From positions 1 to 49,913 of the forward strand of contig RFPC01000009.1 of NCBI GenBank assembly GCA_009926305.1: a stretch of DNA of 49,913 nucleotides. The letters are read 5' to 3'. This DNA comes from a bacterium (GTDB lineage: Bacteria; Bdellovibrionota_C; UBA2361; RFPC01). Below, in pieces: positions 3,213 to 49,913 of the stretch. Positions within the stretch are counted from its first letter, which is position 1. Every line of letters starts with the position of its first letter. Below the pieces are notes generated by a model. The model saw only the letters and a program-made list of their open reading frames with translations. It had not been told where the DNA came from and did not search any database. Made by a program: the position numbers and the translations under genes.

Positions 3213-3833
3213 TCAAGTTCCAGGTAACAGGGTGATGGTTAGAGTTCCTGTATACGTTCCTGCCAGTACATCGAGTATATCTTCGCGGTCAAAATCTACT
3301 GAGAAGTTAGCGTTCGTACCACTTTCAGTACTACACTGCCAATCTCGAGAAGCTGATGTTTGGTTGGAGCCAGTAGATGCCTGTGATCCCCCCTCTGTTC
3401 CTACTTGAGTACGTCCTGTAGTTCCAGTAGCATCGTTCCAATAGACTTTATAAGGAATGTGCTGGTCGGTTGAACCGTTGGAAATTGCAAAAATATTTCC
3501 TGACGAGTTATTACCAGTGTTTACGGCAGTAGTTGTAGCCGTCGAACTTCCTGTAAACTGAATGTTGTAGTTTGCACTCGTTGCGTGGTTCGTATACACA
3601 CAGACATCATCGTTCATTGATAATGCGGGTGAGCTTGTATTGTCTACGTAAGTAGCCTCTGTTAAATCATCAATCGCTGATATGCGATACAAGACGGGAA
3701 TACCAACACTGAGGTCTGAAGTTCCTGTCGATGAATTTTCAGTCGCAGTTGAAGGGTTGGTTGCGGCAAGCGCCGTTCCATTCATGAAAAGTACCATTCC
3801 TAGTACTAAAGTTATTTTCCGTACAGCTTCCAT
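3213..3833 (-). CDS. Spore coat U/Csu-like pilus subunit
   Basis: A 206-residue secreted protein with a clear signal peptide (residues 1-23, ending TALAA). The mature part is Ser/Thr/Asn-rich and follows the same plan as its neighbours: IPVLYRISAIDDL, then DDVCVYTNHA with the first Cys, DWQCST with the second Cys, and the final strand GTYTGTLTITLLPGT. This fits an SCPU-type subunit assembled through the usher encoded immediately upstream at 4165-6714. An AGGAG site nine bases before the ATG supports the start. Its own terminator lies at 3076-3130. Which subunit is major, adaptor or tip cannot be told from sequence. Confidence 0.75.
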   Translation of the reverse strand: MEAVRKITLVLGMVLFMNGTALAATNPSTATENSSTGTSDLSVGIPVLYRISAIDDLTEATYVDNTSSPALSMNDDVCVYTNHATSANYNIQFTGSSTATTTAVNTGNNSSGNIFAISNGSTDQHIPYKVYWNDATGTTGRTQVGTEGGSQASTGSNQTSASRDWQCSTESGTNANFSVDFDREDILDVLAGTYTGTLTITLLPGT

Positions 3834-4164: not shown

Positions 4165-6714
4165 CTACTTACAAATGACATCTCCGAGGTCAGTAAAGAA
4201 GTCTTCTTCTTGATATGAGGGCATCTCAGGTATGCAGGTTTTTCCATTGACTTCTACACTCAATTCTTCATCACCAGCCAGCTCAGCCTGAAAGTACCCC
4301 TCAGAATCAGTAGCAACATATTCACGAGTCCCTTTTAGCCTCTGAAGCGCAATAGGGTTCCCATCCTCATCAACGAGCCGCCCGAGTATAATCGTTATCT
4401 TCACCATTTCCCAGGTTTTCTCGATGACATTACCCGGATAAAAGGTAAGCCTATAGGAAGTGGTATCATAATCGATCAATTCATTTGGATTTGTTGGTCT
4501 GATTGAAACTTTATAAATTTGAAAGGGTGGTACACTAATTGCCGAGCGCTTACCACTCGTAATCGTATCATACCTCTGATTATTCAAAAGAAGCTCAAAT
4601 TTCCTTCCTGGAATGTTCCCCTTTAAATTAGCAATGAACACCGCCTCTTGAGCCATTGGATAGGAGAGTGCCGCTGTCCCACCATTACCAACAATAACAG
4701 CAGTTTCGGCATTAATACCGAAAGAGCTACTCCCTGCACTTCCACCCTGCTGATTTCGGATAAATCCTCGTCCGTACAAGTAATCTCCACCGTAATCGGC
4801 TGTCAGCTGATGGGAATATACCATTCCATTTCCGTCTTCACCGAGATTCCCATTCCGCTTACGCGCTTCAGAGCTAAGAGATAGCCTTGTGTCATACATG
4901 GCTCGCTTTTGTTGTACATAGTTTAATGTCAACAACCCGACAACTTCCTCCTGCTCCTCTCGATCATAATAACCGACTTGAGAATTGAAGCTCCATTCTG
5001 GCGTGAATCGGCGTCTATAACTCAGAGTCCCACTTCTCGCACCGCCTCTTTCCGTTTCAAACACTTGCGCATTGAGGCGAACGAAGTTTTTTCCATCCTC
5101 ATAAACCTGCCATCCAACAGCCGGACCACGCGAGCGCCTCAGCAAGCCATTTCCAACTCGCTCCCCCTGCATTTGGTAATTAAAGCTTAGCGCCCCAATT
5201 CCCTTCCGAAGGCGGACACTATAAAAGGAGCGATCCTGAAACAAGAGTTCTCGCAAACGCTGTCTATCTGCAATGAAGTTCGGTGTTTCTTCTTCTTCTG
5301 GCAACGGGGCCGGAGAAGGATTCGCTAGTCGAGACTTGTTAGAAATCTTGATGGTCTTTGCTCCACTTACGCTGAGAGTCATTGCATTTAAGAAGGTATA
5401 GGAGATATTTCCATTAATACCAGCATCTCCCCGGGTAGAGAGCGAGGAACTCCCCTCGAAAAAGGTATCACGGTAAATTCCGTTCATCTGAGCTTGAGCA
5501 ACAGCTAATCGATCTGTTCCATAAATTGAACCGCCAAGATCAAAGTAATCACTCGCTCTCCACTGTACCCCACCATAAGCAACAGGCGTTTGTTCCAGTG
5601 AAAACTCCTCTCGTGTAACCCCTACTTGAAAGTCATACGAAGGACGTCCACGAATCGTTAAATAACCTGACTTCGTGAAAAATTTCCTATCTGTCGTAAC
5701 ATCACCATTTGTTTCGGTAATTACCACATCAACATCATAACTTCCTTGTGGGAAGCGACTGGTGTCTATCTCTTGTAATCCAAAATCAAGCAGCTGCACC
5801 GTCAACAGACGACCAGCTCGATAGAATTCAACTCGGGCACGAGATGGGACAAAGATTTGCAAAACACTCCCTCGTCCATCCTGGGGATCCAACAAAACTT
5901 TATCGGACGTTTTAGCGCGCAGACCTAAAAACTGTAAGCTATTGGTAAACGTCTGCCCCGTTGTCTCTATAAAGCCTGCTCCGAATTCGAAATCTCCGAT
6001 ATAGCCGTAACTTGATGCCTCAAGCAACTCATAACTTCCATCTTGCCGAGTTGCACCGGTGAAGCGTCCAAAATATCGCCCCTTGCCAATAACAGAACGG
6101 TGAGTAAACGCAGATTGAGTAGTACCACTCACCTCACGAGTTGCTGCAACACCGAGATTTTGCTGAAAAGAAAAACCACCTTCAGGAGAAGGAAGATACC
6201 CTGGTAAACCCATTGTTTCAGCAGTAAAAAACTGCGGCTCGAGTTCAATAACAAGACGGAACGTATAGATATCACAGAGAACTCTTCCAATACCCTCTAT
6301 AGACCGCTCTTTTTCTATCCGCCCAAGAAGAAGGCTTCTTGCATCCTCAAGCCGCTGAGTACGAATATTTGGAAGTTGTTCAAGCGCTCCTATTGGATCA
6401 TCAACTTCACACCAAGCATCGGTGTAATTAGCGAGGATGCCTCCAGTAAATGAGTCTGATGCATATAAGTCAAATAAGGTACGCTCGACACCCTCTTCTT
6501 CTCGATCATCAAAGAGCATATCGTCTTGCTCAGCCTCAGGTTTCTCATCAGTTACTTCCTGAAGTTCATTTAAGGATGGTTTCTCCTGCGCAATAAGCCC
6601 CCGCACCGAGGCCACAGAGAAAATGAATAGCATTAGACTCAATGCAATCCATTTCAGAGGAAGTTTCTTCCTGAACAACCCTAAGTACTGTGGATGTAGT
6701 GTGAGGGAATACAT
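4165..6714 (-). CDS. Outer-membrane pilus usher, TcfC/CfaC-like
   Basis: This 849-residue protein is the outer-membrane pore that receives chaperone-subunit complexes and extrudes the pilus. Residues about 22-42 form the signal segment. An acidic linker and an N-terminal domain follow, and then a long beta-barrel region with alternating aromatic strands. Around residues 290-330 the segment SRARVEFYRAGRLLTVQLLD, followed by GLQEIDTSRFPQGSYDVDV, resembles the middle domain of alternate (CS1/Tcf) ushers. The C-terminus (about 775-849) looks like a carboxypeptidase-regulatory beta domain (GRLVDEDGNPIAL, ATDSEGYFQAEL) with two Cys. It starts eight bases after the AMIN-chaperone gene, with AAGGAG upstream. 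Confidence 0.85.
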   Translation of the reverse strand: MYSLTLHPQYLGLFRKKLPLKWIALSLMLFIFSVASVRGLIAQEKPSLNELQEVTDEKPEAEQDDMLFDDREEEGVERTLFDLYASDSFTGGILANYTDAWCEVDDPIGALEQLPNIRTQRLEDARSLLLGRIEKERSIEGIGRVLCDIYTFRLVIELEPQFFTAETMGLPGYLPSPEGGFSFQQNLGVAATREVSGTTQSAFTHRSVIGKGRYFGRFTGATRQDGSYELLEASSYGYIGDFEFGAGFIETTGQTFTNSLQFLGLRAKTSDKVLLDPQDGRGSVLQIFVPSRARVEFYRAGRLLTVQLLDFGLQEIDTSRFPQGSYDVDVVITETNGDVTTDRKFFTKSGYLTIRGRPSYDFQVGVTREEFSLEQTPVAYGGVQWRASDYFDLGGSIYGTDRLAVAQAQMNGIYRDTFFEGSSSLSTRGDAGINGNISYTFLNAMTLSVSGAKTIKISNKSRLANPSPAPLPEEEETPNFIADRQRLRELLFQDRSFYSVRLRKGIGALSFNYQMQGERVGNGLLRRSRGPAVGWQVYEDGKNFVRLNAQVFETERGGARSGTLSYRRRFTPEWSFNSQVGYYDREEQEEVVGLLTLNYVQQKRAMYDTRLSLSSEARKRNGNLGEDGNGMVYSHQLTADYGGDYLYGRGFIRNQQGGSAGSSSFGINAETAVIVGNGGTAALSYPMAQEAVFIANLKGNIPGRKFELLLNNQRYDTITSGKRSAISVPPFQIYKVSIRPTNPNELIDYDTTSYRLTFYPGNVIEKTWEMVKITIILGRLVDEDGNPIALQRLKGTREYVATDSEGYFQAELAGDEELSVEVNGKTCIPEMPSYQEEDFFTDLGDVICK

Positions 6715-6722
6715 CGCCGGCG

Positions 6723-8069
6723 CTACTCCTTACCCTCAATATTCTCGAGGGGAACCTCAATACGATGTGGCTGAACATTCGTTCCAGCAACTTTCAAGAA
6801 CTGAAGATATCCCTTTTCTGGCACATCAAATTGCACCTCCATCCGTGGAAACAATCTCTGACTGGCAATGGTGGTACATTTACCATCCAATGGGCAGATA
6901 GAAATACCATCGAGGAGAAAACTTTTCTTGCCACTATTTCCGATAACAGCGCCCGAGTCATCATTGCGTACTGTCATCTCTGGCAGCGTATCCGTACGAC
7001 TAGCGAGAACTAAAACGGTTGCTCTCCCTTGAATGGCACCTTCTGCCCACTCCTCCCGATCTAAAGCTACCTTGATATTCTCAAACCCCTCCAAGGCTGT
7101 TACCACAACATGAAACACATCCTCTGCTGCGGAGGGAGGTCCTGTGAGAACAACTCGAACCTGCCTACGCGTCCCAGGCTCCAATGAAAACATCTTCGGT
7201 GAAACCAGCATCTTACTATCAGCAACGCGCTCCTCACTTGAAAGTCCTGGATCTCGAATCCTAAAACTACCCGTAGAGAACGTCAGTGGAACTTGACTGG
7301 TGTTCGAAATAGTAACATTTGCTACCCTCCTATCCCCTCGCGAAAACTCGATCACCGGGGTATCGAGAGCAAATGGGGCTTCAACACCGGTGAGATGCTC
7401 ATCCATTTCATCAGTGAGCTCAGCTACCCTCGGAATTGGAAGTTCACTGTCTATCACAGTTGTGGTTTCCATTCGATTCATCTTCTCATCCGTCGCAACG
7501 ACGGATTGAGCTTTCTCAGTCTCCAAAGTAGCGACTTGAGACACCACCTCATCAGTTGACCGAGGAGCAGGAATCTCTTTCGCATCCTTCACCGCTGAAC
7601 CCCGATCGCTAACCTCATCAAGAGGAGCACTCTCTGAATCGCCTCCAATGACAAGTGAGAAGCTCTTATCCCGGGGTGTTAGCGCATACTTCTTCGGAAT
7701 GGTGTCGAATAAATCGAATACGATTCGGGAGGCCTTCGGCTGGATACCAAAACGGACTGCTGATACACAGGAGGAATCCTTAACCCTCACTACTCGTCCT
7801 CGAGGCAATACCACTCCCTTCAAGTCAACCACCAGTCGCTCATGATTTGCCAGTCGAAAGGAACGTGTACTTAGGGAAGCCGGATGTTGTACCTCCATGC
7901 GGCAAGACTCCCCCACACCTCTTTCAACGATTTGAACATGAATACGATCATGTGTTACCTCTATGACCTCACTATCCGTGCGTACGTCATCTTGAGCACC
8001 TGCTGCAACTGCGAGGAACATGAGAAACACAAACAAAAAACAGCTTCCTTGTTTTCGTTTTTGAATCAT
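6723..8069 (-). CDS. AMIN domain-PapD-like chaperone fusion protein
   Basis: A 448-residue periplasmic protein with signal peptide (residues 1-25, ending AAGA). Residues about 38-140 look like an AMIN domain: RLVVDLKGVVLPRG, then VSAVRFGIQ, then RIVFDLFD. AMIN domains occur in PilQ secretins and AmiC and bind peptidoglycan or target the envelope. An acidic, Thr/Glu-rich linker (140-225) leads to a PapD-type N-terminal chaperone domain: FALDTPVIEFSRGDRRVANV, KMLVSPKMFSLEPGTRRQVR, and VFHVVVTAL in place of the usual YRV strand. A second beta domain with two Cys (CPLDGKC) completes it. It sits between an ordinary chaperone and the usher. The fusion is inferred from pattern and is not a family I know. 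Confidence 0.7.
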   Translation of the reverse strand: MIQKRKQGSCFLFVFLMFLAVAAGAQDDVRTDSEVIEVTHDRIHVQIVERGVGESCRMEVQHPASLSTRSFRLANHERLVVDLKGVVLPRGRVVRVKDSSCVSAVRFGIQPKASRIVFDLFDTIPKKYALTPRDKSFSLVIGGDSESAPLDEVSDRGSAVKDAKEIPAPRSTDEVVSQVATLETEKAQSVVATDEKMNRMETTTVIDSELPIPRVAELTDEMDEHLTGVEAPFALDTPVIEFSRGDRRVANVTISNTSQVPLTFSTGSFRIRDPGLSSEERVADSKMLVSPKMFSLEPGTRRQVRVVLTGPPSAAEDVFHVVVTALEGFENIKVALDREEWAEGAIQGRATVLVLASRTDTLPEMTVRNDDSGAVIGNSGKKSFLLDGISICPLDGKCTTIASQRLFPRMEVQFDVPEKGYLQFLKVAGTNVQPHRIEVPLENIEGKE

Positions 8070-8083
8070 AACTTAACTACCCA

Positions 8084-8125
8084 TGTTTGAAGACAGCTGT
8101 TTGAAGACAGCTGTTTGAAGACAGC
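8084..8125. repeat. Three perfect 14-bp tandem repeats between two chaperone genes
   Basis: The unit TGTTTGAAGACAGC occurs three times without change at 8084-8097, 8098-8111 and 8112-8125. The array fills most of the 55-base spacer between the chaperone stop codon (8125-8127) and the start of the AMIN-chaperone gene at 8069. Copy-number change here would alter the spacing between two co-transcribed genes. Confidence 0.9.
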
Positions 8126-8949
8126 TAGTCTGCAACTCGCTTACCCGGAATAAATTCTCCATCAATGCTCTCTCCCTCTAACGCTGGTAATTCTACCGCC
8201 TCAAATCCCGCTAAAGATCCCGTTCTCATTAAGTATTCAATCTTCCGATCTGCCTTGACAGGAATTTCATAGGTCTGTCCCGCATAAACTCTCTTACGCG
8301 GCGCCTCTTTACAGTCTTCATTGACGCACATTTTCCCTTCCCCAAGTTCGACATGAACATTCCCGACGTTTGTAAAAGTAATCTTGTTTTTTGTCCGCTT
8401 CCACTTTAAATGCCCCAGTGGATTCTTGGGTTGCACAAATACAAGCACCCCCATACCGGTAAGAACACGGATGCTTGCTGTTCGCCCACTGACCGTTTCC
8501 TTCACTTCTTGCCCGAATCCCCTGTCTTGCGGCGTAAAGAGAACGCGATAAACTTTTTCTTTTTCAGTCGGCACCTTTCTTAACAGCATACGAACAGCCC
8601 TCTCTCCAAAGGGCTCGATTGAGAATGTCTTCGGGGACACCAGTATATCCTTAGAAGGCTCAACCTTATCCCCCTGCTCTCCTGGATTTAAGATTACTTC
8701 TACGTGCGCAAGAACATAGGCGGGATTTTCAGAGGAGTTTCCGACAAGAACATTTTGTATCGGTCGCTTTGTTGGAAGAAAAGTAACTATCACGTTATTG
8801 ACCGTGACTTGAGCATGCAAGGGTGTGGCAACCGAGAAAGAAAATATCGTTGTACTGAGGATGAGAAATAATCCAAACTTCAATAGCAATCCTCCACCAA
8901 GGATATTCTTGTTTGTTTTCACCGAACCTCCATGCTCGAACTCTCCCAT
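8125..8949 (-). CDS. Periplasmic pilus assembly chaperone (PapD/FimC-like)
   Basis: The chaperone binds pilus subunits in the periplasm by donor-strand complementation and delivers them to the usher. A hydrophobic signal segment lies at about residues 20-45, ending in LHAQ. The first Ig-like domain has VTFLPTKRPIQNVLVGN and KDILVSPKTFSIEPFGERAVRM, and then VYRVLFTPQ, the strand that in PapD carries conserved Arg and hydrophobic residues. The second domain contains LKWKRTKNKITFTNVGNVHV and a Cys pair. The ATG at 8949 is chosen because GGAGG lies five bases before it; a TTG 12 bases upstream is possible. The small subunit gene ends 20 bases upstream. Confidence 0.88.
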   Translation of the reverse strand: MGEFEHGGSVKTNKNILGGGLLLKFGLFLILSTTIFSFSVATPLHAQVTVNNVIVTFLPTKRPIQNVLVGNSSENPAYVLAHVEVILNPGEQGDKVEPSKDILVSPKTFSIEPFGERAVRMLLRKVPTEKEKVYRVLFTPQDRGFGQEVKETVSGRTASIRVLTGMGVLVFVQPKNPLGHLKWKRTKNKITFTNVGNVHVELGEGKMCVNEDCKEAPRKRVYAGQTYEIPVKADRKIEYLMRTGSLAGFEAVELPALEGESIDGEFIPGKRVAD

Positions 8950-8969
8950 CAATTCCTCCAAATCTATAC

Positions 8970-9434
8970 CTATCCTGGTGTCAACATAAGAGTCAGAGTT
9001 GCAGAATATGAGCCTGGCGTAGCTGCTGATAGATTTGCCTCTGATATCTCTATCCGAAATCCAGCATTAAAAGTTCCCGAACACGAACTGCTTGAAGTGT
9101 TTGCACCACTAAAGTCTTGCACGGTGCCGTAAGAAAGGGTGACATACGTTCCCGATACGCCTGAATCACTGAAAGAAGGAGTATACGGAATGGTGTCACC
9201 AACCTTTTGCAGTTCAAAATCCCCCGAGGAACTTGTTAGCGTGATTGAATAACTAGAGCTATCACTTCGATAAACACAGACAGACGACGTCCCGCTGACT
9301 CCCCCTGTCCCAGACCACGTTCCAAGAGAAATATCAGAAGAGAGGGTGATCATAACATCGCCAAATGCAAGGAATGGAAAACCCAGCAGCAGCGGGAAGA
9401 AAAGCCAGACCGATTTTTGACAAGCTCGCACCAT
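8970..9434 (-). CDS. Small Csu/spore coat U-like pilus subunit, first gene of operon
   Basis: A 154-residue secreted protein with signal peptide (about residues 8-25, ending AFG). The short mature domain has the subunit signature seen twice more downstream: VMITLSSDISLGTW, SSVCVYRSDSSSYSI with the first Cys, SSSSCSGTF with the second, and the terminal strand GSYSATLTLMLTPG. It is the shortest of the three and lacks the long Ser/Thr region of the other two. It is the first gene of the chaperone-usher operon. No strong ribosome site precedes the ATG. Confidence 0.75.
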   Translation of the reverse strand: MVRACQKSVWLFFPLLLGFPFLAFGDVMITLSSDISLGTWSGTGGVSGTSSVCVYRSDSSSYSITLTSSSGDFELQKVGDTIPYTPSFSDSGVSGTYVTLSYGTVQDFSGANTSSSSCSGTFNAGFRIEISEANLSAATPGSYSATLTLMLTPG

Positions 9435-9745: not shown

Positions 9746-10261
9746 ATGTCAGGACGACCCCATTATCCCCGAACCACCCATCAAAGCCAATCAACCACCA
9801 GCAAGCGTTTGCTTACTCTCTGCGTCTTTCTTGCTTTGACCGCGGGCACTCCCACAGCAGCACTTGCGAGTGATGGAGCAGTGGGGCCAACATCAACGGG
9901 ACATGCTGAAATCACGCTAGAAGTGCAGCATACCCTTACGCCTCTTACCAGCTCTCGAAGTGGGACATTCTCTCCAGCCGCCTTACGCTCGTTCGGTTCT
10001 AGGAATAACGGATTCTCGTTTTTACGGGTCGCTGACAAGCCTCACGAGAAGGCTGACCCAAATATTCAGTGCATCTGGTCAAACAATCCAGGAATTCTTT
10101 ATCAGATTGCCATTCCTCAGCGAGGCGCAAAACCACACCGAATCATCTCACGAATGACAGCAGATATGTTCAAAACAAGAACATGTAAGCCATTAAACCT
10201 TAGTCGATACCCGACTTTGCCAGATGACAAAAACGTAGTGCTTTTTATCCCAGAAACATAG
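9746..10261 (+). CDS. Hypothetical secreted protein
   Basis: A 171-residue protein that I do not recognise. A basic N-terminus followed by a hydrophobic stretch (about residues 21-42, ending AALAS) is a good signal peptide. Residues about 53-63 (HAEITLEVQHT) form a predicted beta strand. The C-terminal half has two Cys (IQCIWSNN and RTCKPLNL) that could pair. An AAGGAG site nine bases before the ATG supports both the gene and its start. It is transcribed away from the pilus operon. A secreted accessory protein of the pilus is possible, but only position suggests this. Confidence 0.6.
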   Translation: MSGRPHYPRTTHQSQSTTSKRLLTLCVFLALTAGTPTAALASDGAVGPTSTGHAEITLEVQHTLTPLTSSRSGTFSPAALRSFGSRNNGFSFLRVADKPHEKADPNIQCIWSNNPGILYQIAIPQRGAKPHRIISRMTADMFKTRTCKPLNLSRYPTLPDDKNVVLFIPET

Positions 10262-34301: not shown

Positions 34302-35345
34302 ATGAGCATTCAATCAGGAACAGGAGAACGAGATAACAATTGCATGAGTGCGAATGGCGAACAGAGCAAAGAGCTTATTCGGCATGATTGGACTCGCGAT
34401 GAAATTCAAGCACTATATGATACTCCATTTCTAGAACTCGTATACCAAGCTGCTTCCATTCACAGACAGTTTCATAATCCTGGCGAGGTTCAGGTCTGCT
34501 CCCTACTCTCTATTAAGACCGGGGGCTGCCCTGAAGATTGTGGATACTGCTCTCAGTCGGTGCACCATGAGACTGCTGTTGAGGTTCAGCCACTCCTTGA
34601 AGTAGATGAAGTCATCGAGGCAGCTACTCGAGCAAAAAAAGCTGGAGCAACTCGATTTTGCATGGGTGCTGCTTGGCGAGAAGTGCGGGATAACAGAGCT
34701 TTTGATCGGGTGCTTGAAATGGTTCGCGTTGTCCACGATATGGATCTTGAAGTTTGTTGTACACTTGGAATGCTCACCGAAGAGCAAGCTGTTAAACTCA
34801 AAGCTGCTGGTCTCCATGCATATAACCACAACATTGATACCTCGCCTGAGAATTATGGTTCTGTTTGTTCTACAAGAACGATTGAAGACCGCCTCAATAC
34901 GCTGGAAGCTGCGCGAAGCGCAGGATTGACCGTATGTTGTGGTGGCATCCTAGGTCTTGGAGAGAGTAATCAGGATCGAGTGGGAATGCTTCATACCCTC
35001 GCGACTCTCCCGACCCACCCTGAATCAGTACCGGTCAATACTCTCGTAAAGATAGAAGGCACGCCGTTTGCGGGGAACCCTGATGTTAGCGTCTGGGACT
35101 TCATCAGAACTATCGCTGTAGCGCGAATTACTATGCCGCAGGCGATGGTGAGGCTAGCAGCAGGAAGACTTTCGCTCTCTGCTGAAGCGCAATCCCTAGC
35201 GTTTCTTGCTGGAGCGAATTCTATATTTGCTGGTGAAAAACTCCTCACCACTCCGAATCCTGACTTTGATGAAGATATGAATTTTTTGAATCATCTGGGT
35301 CTCACTGCAAAAGAGCCGGACTGCACCCCAAGTCATGATTGCTAA
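34302..35345 (+). CDS. bioB: Biotin synthase
   Basis: BioB inserts sulphur into dethiobiotin as a radical-SAM enzyme, the last step of biotin synthesis. The cluster motif CPEDCGYC gives Cys76, Cys80 and Cys83 for the [4Fe-4S] centre. Downstream, [33 protein letters not shown] and [11 protein letters not shown] carry the Cys residues and Asn/Asp that in other BioB proteins bind the second cluster and substrates. [12 protein letters not shown] closes the family pattern. The N-terminus is about 20 residues longer than usual and polar. AGGAG lies seven bases before the ATG. Confidence 0.97.
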
Positions 35346-36519
35346 GCTCCTCTCGAAAGAACTGGAAAACCGAGAGTCAAGAAACGAACTTCGGAAGTTG
35401 AGAATACTTCCTTCGCACCATGTGGACTTTTGCTCAAATGACTACCTTGGGCTCATACGCTCAGGTGATCTTGAACGCTCCATTCAAGAGGCAATTACCA
35501 CTGCCTGTCCAACAAGTAGTCGGTTGGCTGGCGCCGGCAGTTCGAGGCTTATCGCTGGAAACAATCAGCACGTCCAAGCATTTGAAGAATGGCTCTCTAC
35601 TTTCTACGGAGGCGAAGCCGCGCTTATTTTCACCTCTGGCTACAACGCAAACCTCGGATTGATTTCCGCTCTGGGTACTCTTAACGATTTAGTCTTTCTG
35701 TATGACGAACAGATTCATGCATCCATGAGAGATGGATTTCGGCTCAGTCGCGCAAAATCACATCACTTTCAACATAATGACTTGGATCACCTAGAAAATC
35801 TCCTACAACGTCAAAAAAAAGAGGTAATTGTTTTCGCTGAAGCTGTATATTCGATGGAAGGAGATAGAGCACCTTTAGTTGACATGGTTGAACTTATCGA
35901 ACGGTATGGAGCAAAGCTTATTGTCGATGAGGCTCACGCTGTTGGGCTTTACGGAGCTTCAGGAGAAGGACTTGTTCAGTCCCTAGGACTTAGTGACCGA
36001 GTATTTGCTCGAGTCTGTGGTTGGGGAAAAGCGCATGGCTCTCAAGGAGCCGTCATTATTGCGGAACAACAAACAAAGGAATTTCTTATTAACTTCTCTA
36101 GACCGTTTATTTATTCAACTGGCATATCTCATCTTATGCTTATCGCAGCTGAGTGCTCTTACAGGATTGTTCAAAGGGCGCGCACCGAGAGAGCCAAGAT
36201 GAAACGCCTGATTGACGAATGGAACACACATCCGTCGAACGACCTCATTACTATTTCAAACAATGCTACTCCCATTCAGATACTACAACCGACCCAACCA
36301 AGAGCTGAAGCGACAGCTCTCATCCACAAGCTCAGCTCTATCCTACTCGCTCACAAAATGAATGTAGTTCCCATCTACTCACCAACTGTCTCAAGAGGGA
36401 GTGAACGTATTCGAATATCACTTCACGCCTTTAATTCTCCCGCGGAAGTGCGTACTCTATTACAACTGGTGGACAACATTGCAATGAGTACAGATATAAT
36501 AGCAGAAGGAAGCGCATGA
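35335..36519 (+). CDS. bioF: 8-amino-7-oxononanoate synthase
   Basis: BioF condenses a pimeloyl thioester with alanine using PLP. Motifs are [39 protein letters not shown], and [16 protein letters not shown]. In place of the usual T.SKA.G..GG the PLP-Lys segment is [25 protein letters not shown] follows. The length of 394 residues is normal. The start overlaps the end of bioB by 11 bases, and the stop overlaps bioD by four, so translation is coupled. It supplies the substrate for BioA. Confidence 0.96.
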
Positions 36520-37145
36520 AAATTGCAGATCAAAAGCGGATCTATATCGTCGGAAACAATACCGGGGTTGGAAAGACTATTGTAAGCGCGATTCTTACCG
36601 AAGCCTTTCAAGCTGATTATTGGAAGCCAATACAGGCCGGAGACCTTGAGCACTCGGATTCGAATATTGTCTCTCGACTGGTGAGCAACGATAAATCAAA
36701 AATCCATCCCGAGGCATACCTCCTCCAAGAGCCAATTTCTCCACACGCGGCGGCCGAACGAGAAGGAATAGAAATTAAGATTGAATCTATTGTAGCGCCT
36801 GAGACCTCCAGACAGCTGATTATCGAAAGTGCTGGTGGTATTCTCAGTCCCATTAATAGAAAGAAGACGATGCGAGACCTTGCGGTTCACCTCAAGTCAC
36901 CAGCTCTGATTGTATCACGCCACTATCTGGGTTCTATCAATCACACACTCCTTACGATCGAAGCGCTGAAAGACAGGCAAATTCCGATTCTCGGGGTGAT
37001 ATTCGTCGGAGATCCTGAGCCAGAAAGTGAGACGGTCATCGTTGGGATGGGAAGAGCAAAAATGTTGGGGCGGGTAAGCTGGGAAGATGGATTTTCGCCG
37101 AGTCTTGTTTCTCAGTATGCACGGCTTCTGAAAGAGGTTCTCTAA
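36516..37145 (+). CDS. bioD: Dethiobiotin synthetase
   Basis: BioD closes the ureido ring of 7,8-diaminopelargonic acid with ATP and CO2. The P-loop IVGNNTGVGKTIVSAIL (usual GTDTGVGKT) is at residues 11-27. KPIQAGD corresponds to the KPVQTG substrate motif and contains the catalytic Lys. LIIESAGGILSPINRKKTM corresponds to the EGAGG loop, with Ser replacing the usual Gly. VSRHYLGSINHTLLTIEAL is also typical. The length of 209 residues is slightly short. It overlaps bioF by four bases (ATGA), and bioA starts one base after its stop. Confidence 0.95.
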   Translation: MKIADQKRIYIVGNNTGVGKTIVSAILTEAFQADYWKPIQAGDLEHSDSNIVSRLVSNDKSKIHPEAYLLQEPISPHAAAEREGIEIKIESIVAPETSRQLIIESAGGILSPINRKKTMRDLAVHLKSPALIVSRHYLGSINHTLLTIEALKDRQIPILGVIFVGDPEPESETVIVGMGRAKMLGRVSWEDGFSPSLVSQYARLLKEVL

Positions 37146-37146
37146 C

Positions 37147-38481
37147 GTGAAGCGAGAGCCCATTGAAATGCACCTCCGCAGGTCTCTGATTCAACGAGAT
37201 GAAGATGTTCTCTGGCATCCCTTTTCCCACCATTCTTTAGAGCCTGCTCGGATGGCGATCAAACGTGGTGAGGGTACATGGCTTGTCACAGAGGATGGAA
37301 GACATCTGCTTGATGCCGTTAGCTCCTGGTGGGTGAACCTACATGGTCACAGTAATCGGTATATTGCGGAAGCCATTGCTGAGCAGGCTAACAAGCTAGA
37401 GCACTGTATTTTTGCCGGTTTTACGCATGAGCCAGCCATTGAGCTCTCTGAGTTAGTGCTTGAAGCTCTTCCACCAAACCAAAAGAAGATCTTTTTCTCG
37501 GATAACGGCTCAACTGCTGTTGAAGTTGCTCTAAAAATGGCTATTCAAGCTGATCTCATACGGACTAAGGGTGAATCAAAGCGAAAAACAATAATTGCTC
37601 TTGAAGGCGGCTACCATGGGGATACCTTTGGTGCGATGTCAGTAAGCGGACGCGGAGCCTTTACCGCTCCGTTTTTTGATTATCTCTTCGACGTTAAACA
37701 TCTCCCCATACCAACCGTTGAGAACTGCTCGCAGCTCTGTCATGCACTGGAAGCATACTGCAAAGATGGCTCAGTCTTAGCATTTATTTATGAGCCTCTC
37801 GTCCAAGGAGCAGGCGGAATGAATATCTATCGAGCTGAAGAACTCAATACTTTGCTTTCCATTGCAAAGCGCTATGGAGTCATATGCGTTGCTGATGAAG
37901 TCATGACTGGCTTCGGGCGAACTGAGGCTCTATTTGCTAGCTCATTGCTTGAAATTCAGCCTGACATTATGTGCCTCTCAAAGGGGATTACAGGAGGCTT
38001 CCTACCCCTTGGAGCTACAAGTTGTACCCAGGAGATTTATGAATCATTTGAACATCCAGACCGTCAAACATTCTTTTTTCATGGACATTCATATGCGGGA
38101 AATCCATTGGCATGCGCTGCTGGGATAGCGAGCATAAAACTTCTACAATCCTCTCACTGCACCCAACAGAGAGCGAGTATTATGAAGAGTCATCAGCAAG
38201 CGATTGAGTCTTTCAGGAATGCTCCAGGGATTGGGGGAGTCCGTTCGCAAGGAACCATCTTTGCGCTCGATATCGAAACGGCTCAGGCGACAAACTATCA
38301 AAATCCTCTACGAGACCGCCTCTACTCGTTTTTTCTCGAAAGGGGACTCCTTATCCGTCCTCTCGGCAATGTACTCTACTTAATGCCACCTTATTGCATC
38401 ACTCCGAACGAACTCACTCTATGTTATGATGCTCTCCTCGATGCTGGAAGGCACTTCTCTTCCGATAACTCTACTTACTGA
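37147..38481 (+). CDS. bioA: Adenosylmethionine-8-amino-7-oxononanoate aminotransferase
   Basis: BioA transfers an amino group from S-adenosylmethionine (or, in some relatives, lysine) to 8-amino-7-oxononanoate. Typical segments are DVLWHPFSHHSLEP, then SSWWVNLHGHSN, then FAGFTHEPAIELSE, FSDNGSTAVEVALKMA, ALEGGYHGDTFGAMS and VADEVMTGFGRTEALFAS. The PLP-Lys lies in PDIMCLSKGITGGFLPLGAT. FFHGHSYAGNPLACAAG is the adenosyl-region motif. The 444-residue length is normal. The GTG start lies one base after the bioD stop. This is the last gene of the biotin operon. Confidence 0.96.
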   Translation: MKREPIEMHLRRSLIQRDEDVLWHPFSHHSLEPARMAIKRGEGTWLVTEDGRHLLDAVSSWWVNLHGHSNRYIAEAIAEQANKLEHCIFAGFTHEPAIELSELVLEALPPNQKKIFFSDNGSTAVEVALKMAIQADLIRTKGESKRKTIIALEGGYHGDTFGAMSVSGRGAFTAPFFDYLFDVKHLPIPTVENCSQLCHALEAYCKDGSVLAFIYEPLVQGAGGMNIYRAEELNTLLSIAKRYGVICVADEVMTGFGRTEALFASSLLEIQPDIMCLSKGITGGFLPLGATSCTQEIYESFEHPDRQTFFFHGHSYAGNPLACAAGIASIKLLQSSHCTQQRASIMKSHQQAIESFRNAPGIGGVRSQGTIFALDIETAQATNYQNPLRDRLYSFFLERGLLIRPLGNVLYLMPPYCITPNELTLCYDALLDAGRHFSSDNSTY

Positions 38482-49894: not shown

Positions 49895-49913
49895 CTGTCT
49901 CTTATACACATCT
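49895..49913. other. Nextera transposase mosaic-end sequence (library adaptor)
   Basis: CTGTCTCTTATACACATCT is the exact reverse complement of the 19-base Tn5 mosaic end used in Nextera libraries. It is at the extreme right end of the window. It is not genomic sequence, and marks the end of an assembled contig. Confidence 0.97.

Follow-up and report, generated by a model that had tools for sequence, protein, structure and literature searches.

A single gene in the window, by which we mean the whole stretch of 49,913 nucleotides analyzed here (contig RFPC01000009.1, from a bacterium of the Bdellovibrionota_C), encodes a protein of 448 amino acids in which an AMIN domain is joined through a linker to a two-domain pilus chaperone. 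This fusion is recurrent, being found in two operons of one order, and in the open-access papers searched the combination of AMIN and chaperone is undescribed for chaperone-usher systems.

An AMIN domain joined to a pilus chaperone

The fusion gene lies on the minus strand at positions 6723 to 8069 and runs from an ATG beginning at 8069 to a TAG ending at 6723. Reading the sequence gave a signal peptide at residues 1 to 26 (7992 to 8069), with KRK, a hydrophobic core, and AGA-QD, and we infer that the protein is secreted and periplasmic. The signal peptide is followed on the same strand by the AMIN domain at residues 40 to 151 (7617 to 7952; Pfam core at residues 55 to 132), identified by Pfam, an independent profile, and an AmiC/PilQ-like fold; by a linker at about residues 152 to 230 (7380 to 7616), recognized by its composition and matching no family; and by the PapD-like two-domain chaperone at residues 231 to 445 (6735 to 7379), identified by Pfam PapD_N, a profile match, and a structural model. 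The linker is acidic, with a calculated pI of 4.2 for residues 151 to 224 versus 8.7 for the basic AMIN half, and the second chaperone domain carries a cysteine pair, C392 and C398. A 14-base unit, which is possibly a slippage-prone spacer, is present in three perfect tandem copies at 8084 to 8126, between the first chaperone gene and the AMIN-chaperone gene.

The AMIN domain was reportedly defined in a 2008 paper. In the window protein, the Pfam AMIN model (PF11741) matched residues 55 to 132 with an E value of 2.3e-8 and a score of 34.5 bits, compared to a cut-off of 20.5, and the core motifs R..V.D and R.G....R.V.D were retained. An independent AMIN profile, built only from non-fused proteins (36 of them), gave 73 bits for the window protein and 66 bits for its homologue in a second genome, G011, but matched none of four single-domain chaperones. 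Three proteins were also shuffled 300 times each, and no shuffled sequence was matched. When a profile made from both fused proteins was used, its first part matched AmiC (4bin) at 2.4e-8 and its last part matched CfaA at 6.5e-5. The NCBIfam models for AmiC and the TcfA chaperone matched the window protein weakly. Fold models were built for the AMIN and chaperone halves separately, and these were the models used, since a mixed alignment of full-length proteins wrongly placed chaperone strands in the AMIN region. The AlphaFold model of residues 27 to 150, made from 39 aligned sequences, was all beta, with a pLDDT of 86 and a pTM of 0.80. Its top matches in the PDB were AmiC 4bin (E value of 2.7e-4) and then PilQ 4aqz, 4av2, and 3jc8, with small heat-shock proteins as the next, weaker-scoring matches. 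An extra Ig-like domain, as an extension of an ordinary chaperone, was ruled out for the N-terminal half by this fold search, in which the AMIN domains of AmiC and PilQ ranked best. These results confirm that the N-terminal half is an AMIN domain. It is like the AMIN domains of AmiC and the PilQ secretin in its sequence motifs, fold, and predicted periplasmic place, but those are joined to an amidase or a secretin whereas this one is joined to a chaperone.

For the C-terminal half, PapD_N (PF00345) matched residues 245 to 326 with an E value of 1.7e-6 and 28.4 bits against a cut-off of 23, and profile matches were obtained to CfaA (1e-16), CsuC (5.5e-13), and EcpB (1.4e-9). The AlphaFold model of residues 225 to 448, made from 31 sequences, had a pLDDT of 88 and a pTM of 0.82 and ranked CfaA, CsuC, and EcpB first in the PDB (4y2o, 6fq0, and 5dfk). 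Profile and model thus agree that the two-domain Ig-like chaperone fold is present in this half. The initial annotation had proposed an AMIN-like domain at residues 38 to 140 and a PapD-like chaperone at residues 225 to 430; both identities and both sets of boundaries were correct, with the AMIN match above the Pfam cut-off and the predicted N-terminal fold that of AMIN.

The pilus operon and its relatives

The same annotation had placed the fusion as the second chaperone gene of a pilus operon, as was borne out by the gene order, which on the minus strand is tip-type pilin, ordinary chaperone, AMIN-chaperone, usher, and two pilins. The tip-type pilin (8970 to 9434) lacks the N-terminal donor extension when aligned with other pilins. 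The first, single-domain chaperone (8125 to 8961; PapD_N at 1.4e-6) has an intact donor strand and YR motif. Directly downstream of the fusion gene is that of a TcfC/CooC-like outer-membrane usher of 849 amino acids (4165 to 6714; TcfC at 1.7e-16 and CooC_C at 1.9e-15), followed by two pilins with N-terminal extensions, one SCPU-like (3213 to 3833; weak SCPU match at 0.013) and one DUF4402/SCPU-like (2180 to 2803; DUF4402 at 2.3e-5). Alpha-type fimbrial subunits were not found, the window pilins instead matching DUF4402/SCPU, which are of the archaic type. Because the usher is alpha-like, this system combines alternative and archaic features, and we class it, from these family matches, as a mixed alpha-like/archaic-like chaperone-usher system. 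On the plus strand, a divergent secreted pilin-like protein with a pilin-type N-terminal extension is encoded at 9746 to 10261, and its membership in the operon is uncertain. A divergent secreted protein with the same type of extension occupies the same place in G011 (L057, 12371 to 12808), and BLASTP between the two proteins found no similarity.

The initial annotation had suggested looking for the same two-domain architecture beside ushers in other genomes, and such a case was found in G011 (CAIXSY010000265.1), which belongs to another family of the same order. This homologue is 472 amino acids long and 28% identical to the window fusion, with Pfam scores of 1.1e-7 (32.3 bits) for AMIN and 1.5e-4 for PapD_N. 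Its gene is directly upstream of the usher gene and overlaps the usher start by 4 bases, within an operon that is permuted to AMIN-chaperone, usher, two pilins, tip pilin, and chaperone. Since the same architecture is present beside an usher in G011, an assembly or gene-fusion artifact was ruled out. The tip-type pilins of G011, G032, and G030 also lack the N-terminal extension and also adjoin a single-domain chaperone. Ushers of the TcfC type were present in 4 of the 46 genomes of the class (G000, G011, G030, and G032), with the fusion in two of these four. The fused genes may go back to one fusion event or to several: AU tests did not reject a single clade for either the fused chaperone domains (p of 0.18) or the fused AMIN domains (p of 0.17), in trees with long branches, one of which leads to the window chaperone domain. 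In G030, the N-terminal domain of the usher appears to be present three times in tandem, with the usher divided between two contigs (L125, 3659 to 5410, and L040, 1 to 1671).

A third genome, G003, from the same family as the window, encodes an orphan protein of 461 amino acids. One half is a chaperone, whereas the N-terminal half is AMIN-like but lacks the key AMIN residues, and no usher was found in this genome. With an unbiased profile, the N-terminal part scored only 6.6 bits and was rejected as an AMIN domain; a high hhalign probability was circular, the G003 row being inside the profile, and was left uncounted. We read the G003 orphan as a degenerate version of the fusion. Proteins of approximately 400 amino acids consisting of AMIN, a linker, and a beta domain were seen in many genomes of the class (L006, L093, L094, and L095), while in the window's own genome AMIN occurs only in the chaperone fusion.

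The window and G011 provided the only two clear cases of the fusion; no other was found in samples totaling about 1,200 other genomes. In a set of 383 relatives, which included about 337 genomes from beyond the class, no other match spanned both halves, and the PapD_N matches outside the class were in frames of 206 to 332 amino acids. Samples of three phyla taken via G312 (369 genomes), G352 (390), and G072 (134) also gave no match covering both halves, with single-domain chaperones present in 23 genomes of the G312 sample. A plasmid search yielded one single-domain chaperone, from Sphingomonas. A scan of contigs by signal peptide and linker patterns found only G011 but says little about rarity, since these patterns were poor. 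A link between AMIN and chaperone-usher systems was not found in the open-access papers searched, which supports the earlier statement that this architecture is absent from described systems.

Subunit grip in the chaperone half

The alternative (alpha/class 5, FGA) and archaic chaperones CfaA, EcpB, and CsuC are two-domain Ig-like proteins encoded adjacent to an usher, as is the window fusion, and EcpB has a cysteine pair in its C-terminal domain, as the fusion does. Unlike these three, the fusion carries AMIN and a linker ahead of its chaperone domains, and its donor positions and Arg89 equivalent are changed compared to those of CsuC. Chaperones of the PapD type have large hydrophobic residues at alternating positions of the G1 donor strand. 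In the favored register of the alignment, the CsuC donor positions Val110, Phe112, Met114, and Tyr116 correspond to G344, I346, G348, and A350 of the window fusion, a reading that depends on the alignment and falls in a segment modeled with low confidence (pLDDT of about 55). At the same four positions, the operon's first chaperone has I, V, T, and M, and the G011 fusion has L, V, T, and L. CsuC Arg89 belongs to the anchor for the subunit carboxylate in domain 1 (PMC4654587). Arginine is present at its position in the G011 fusion and in nearly all of 31 aligned chaperones, but is replaced by His320 in the window fusion. In the window fusion, both the donor strand and one of the arginines that anchor the subunit thus look eroded, and its grip on subunits looks weakened. 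Since the G011 fusion retains the donor residues and, like the first chaperone of the window operon, the YR motif, it may be a normal chaperone.

Proposed role of the fusion

We favor a reading in which the fusion is an auxiliary chaperone or dock of the pilus operon, stationary on the usher side and bound to peptidoglycan or to a wall partner, and we give this a probability only slightly above one half (roughly 0.55). The AMIN half would bind peptidoglycan or a wall-associated partner, and the flexible acidic linker would join it to a chaperone half of the alternative/archaic type, which would thereby be kept near the usher. The ordinary chaperone of the operon would bring pilins to the stationary fusion, which would pass them to the usher and so fix the site at which the pilus is built. 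It is plausible that the AMIN half holds the chaperone at the cell wall in this manner, and we infer by analogy that this half binds peptidoglycan, that the fusion touches the usher, and that it affects pilus assembly or position. Because the same operon contains a complete ordinary chaperone and the related operon of G032 has that chaperone alone, the fusion seems to have been added for the sake of docking or positioning. Given how eroded its donor strand and arginine look, the window protein may serve as a fixed dock or an auxiliary factor instead of an ordinary chaperone on a leash.

To our knowledge, described chaperone-usher pili have a freely diffusing periplasmic chaperone, and we know of no usher that is tied to the wall. 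In Pseudomonas aeruginosa, the AMIN domain of PilQ binds peptidoglycan and is needed for the polar placement of the type IV pilus machine (PMC5285504), which suggests a shared principle of wall-bound positioning of a pilus machine, although that AMIN domain sits in the outer-membrane pore and the window AMIN in a chaperone beside the usher. The AMIN domain of Campylobacter jejuni FliO influences bipolar flagellation and is a lineage-specific addition. In FliO and PflA, as in the fusion, AMIN has been added to a component of an envelope machine responsible for a surface filament (PMC12248157), but these are flagellar proteins, whereas the fusion is a chaperone-usher component. A wall-binding chaperone, if true, would give chaperone-usher pili a means of anchoring or positioning such as type IV pili and flagella have, and would make their pili the third class of surface filament known to have recruited AMIN. 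A broader, tentative proposal, which we regard as less likely than not, is that some systems have a third kind of core component. This would be a derivative of the chaperone that is anchored to the wall and does not shuttle, and it would dock pilin complexes at the usher and determine where on the cell pili are built.

The best-surviving alternative, although improbable in our estimate, is that the fusion is a fully working chaperone for the major pilins that AMIN merely keeps near the wall, with the ordinary chaperone serving the tip pilin. Such a division would fit the gene order in both operons, where the fused gene is followed by the usher and major pilins and the gene for the single-domain chaperone lies next to that for the tip pilin, and would fit the donor residues and YR motif kept in G011, but not the Gly or Ala at three of the four donor positions and the His in place of the anchoring Arg in the window protein, nor the G032 operon, in which one ordinary chaperone suffices for both major and tip pilins. 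It is less probable still, and unlikely, that AMIN serves as a protein-docking module for the usher or another periplasmic complex and not for peptidoglycan; the AMIN-bearing proteins PilQ, FliO, and PflA all sit in multiprotein envelope machines, yet the isolated AMIN domains of P. aeruginosa PilQ and AmiC bind peptidoglycan (PMC5285504). A decaying paralogue with no essential role, which the long branch, the eroded donor strand, and the degenerate usherless orphan of G003 might suggest, is very improbable given the intact reading frame, the retained AMIN motifs and disulfide cysteines, and the fact that a distant relative has the fusion in the same place.

Elsewhere in the window, the end of the contig at 49895 to 49913, read on the minus strand, starts with AGATGTGTATAAGAGACAG, which we take to be the Nextera transposase adaptor, and because of this match the final 19 bases probably do not belong to the genome. 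A biotin synthesis cluster (bioB, bioF, bioD, and bioA-like), judged from translations alone, is located at 34302 to 38481.
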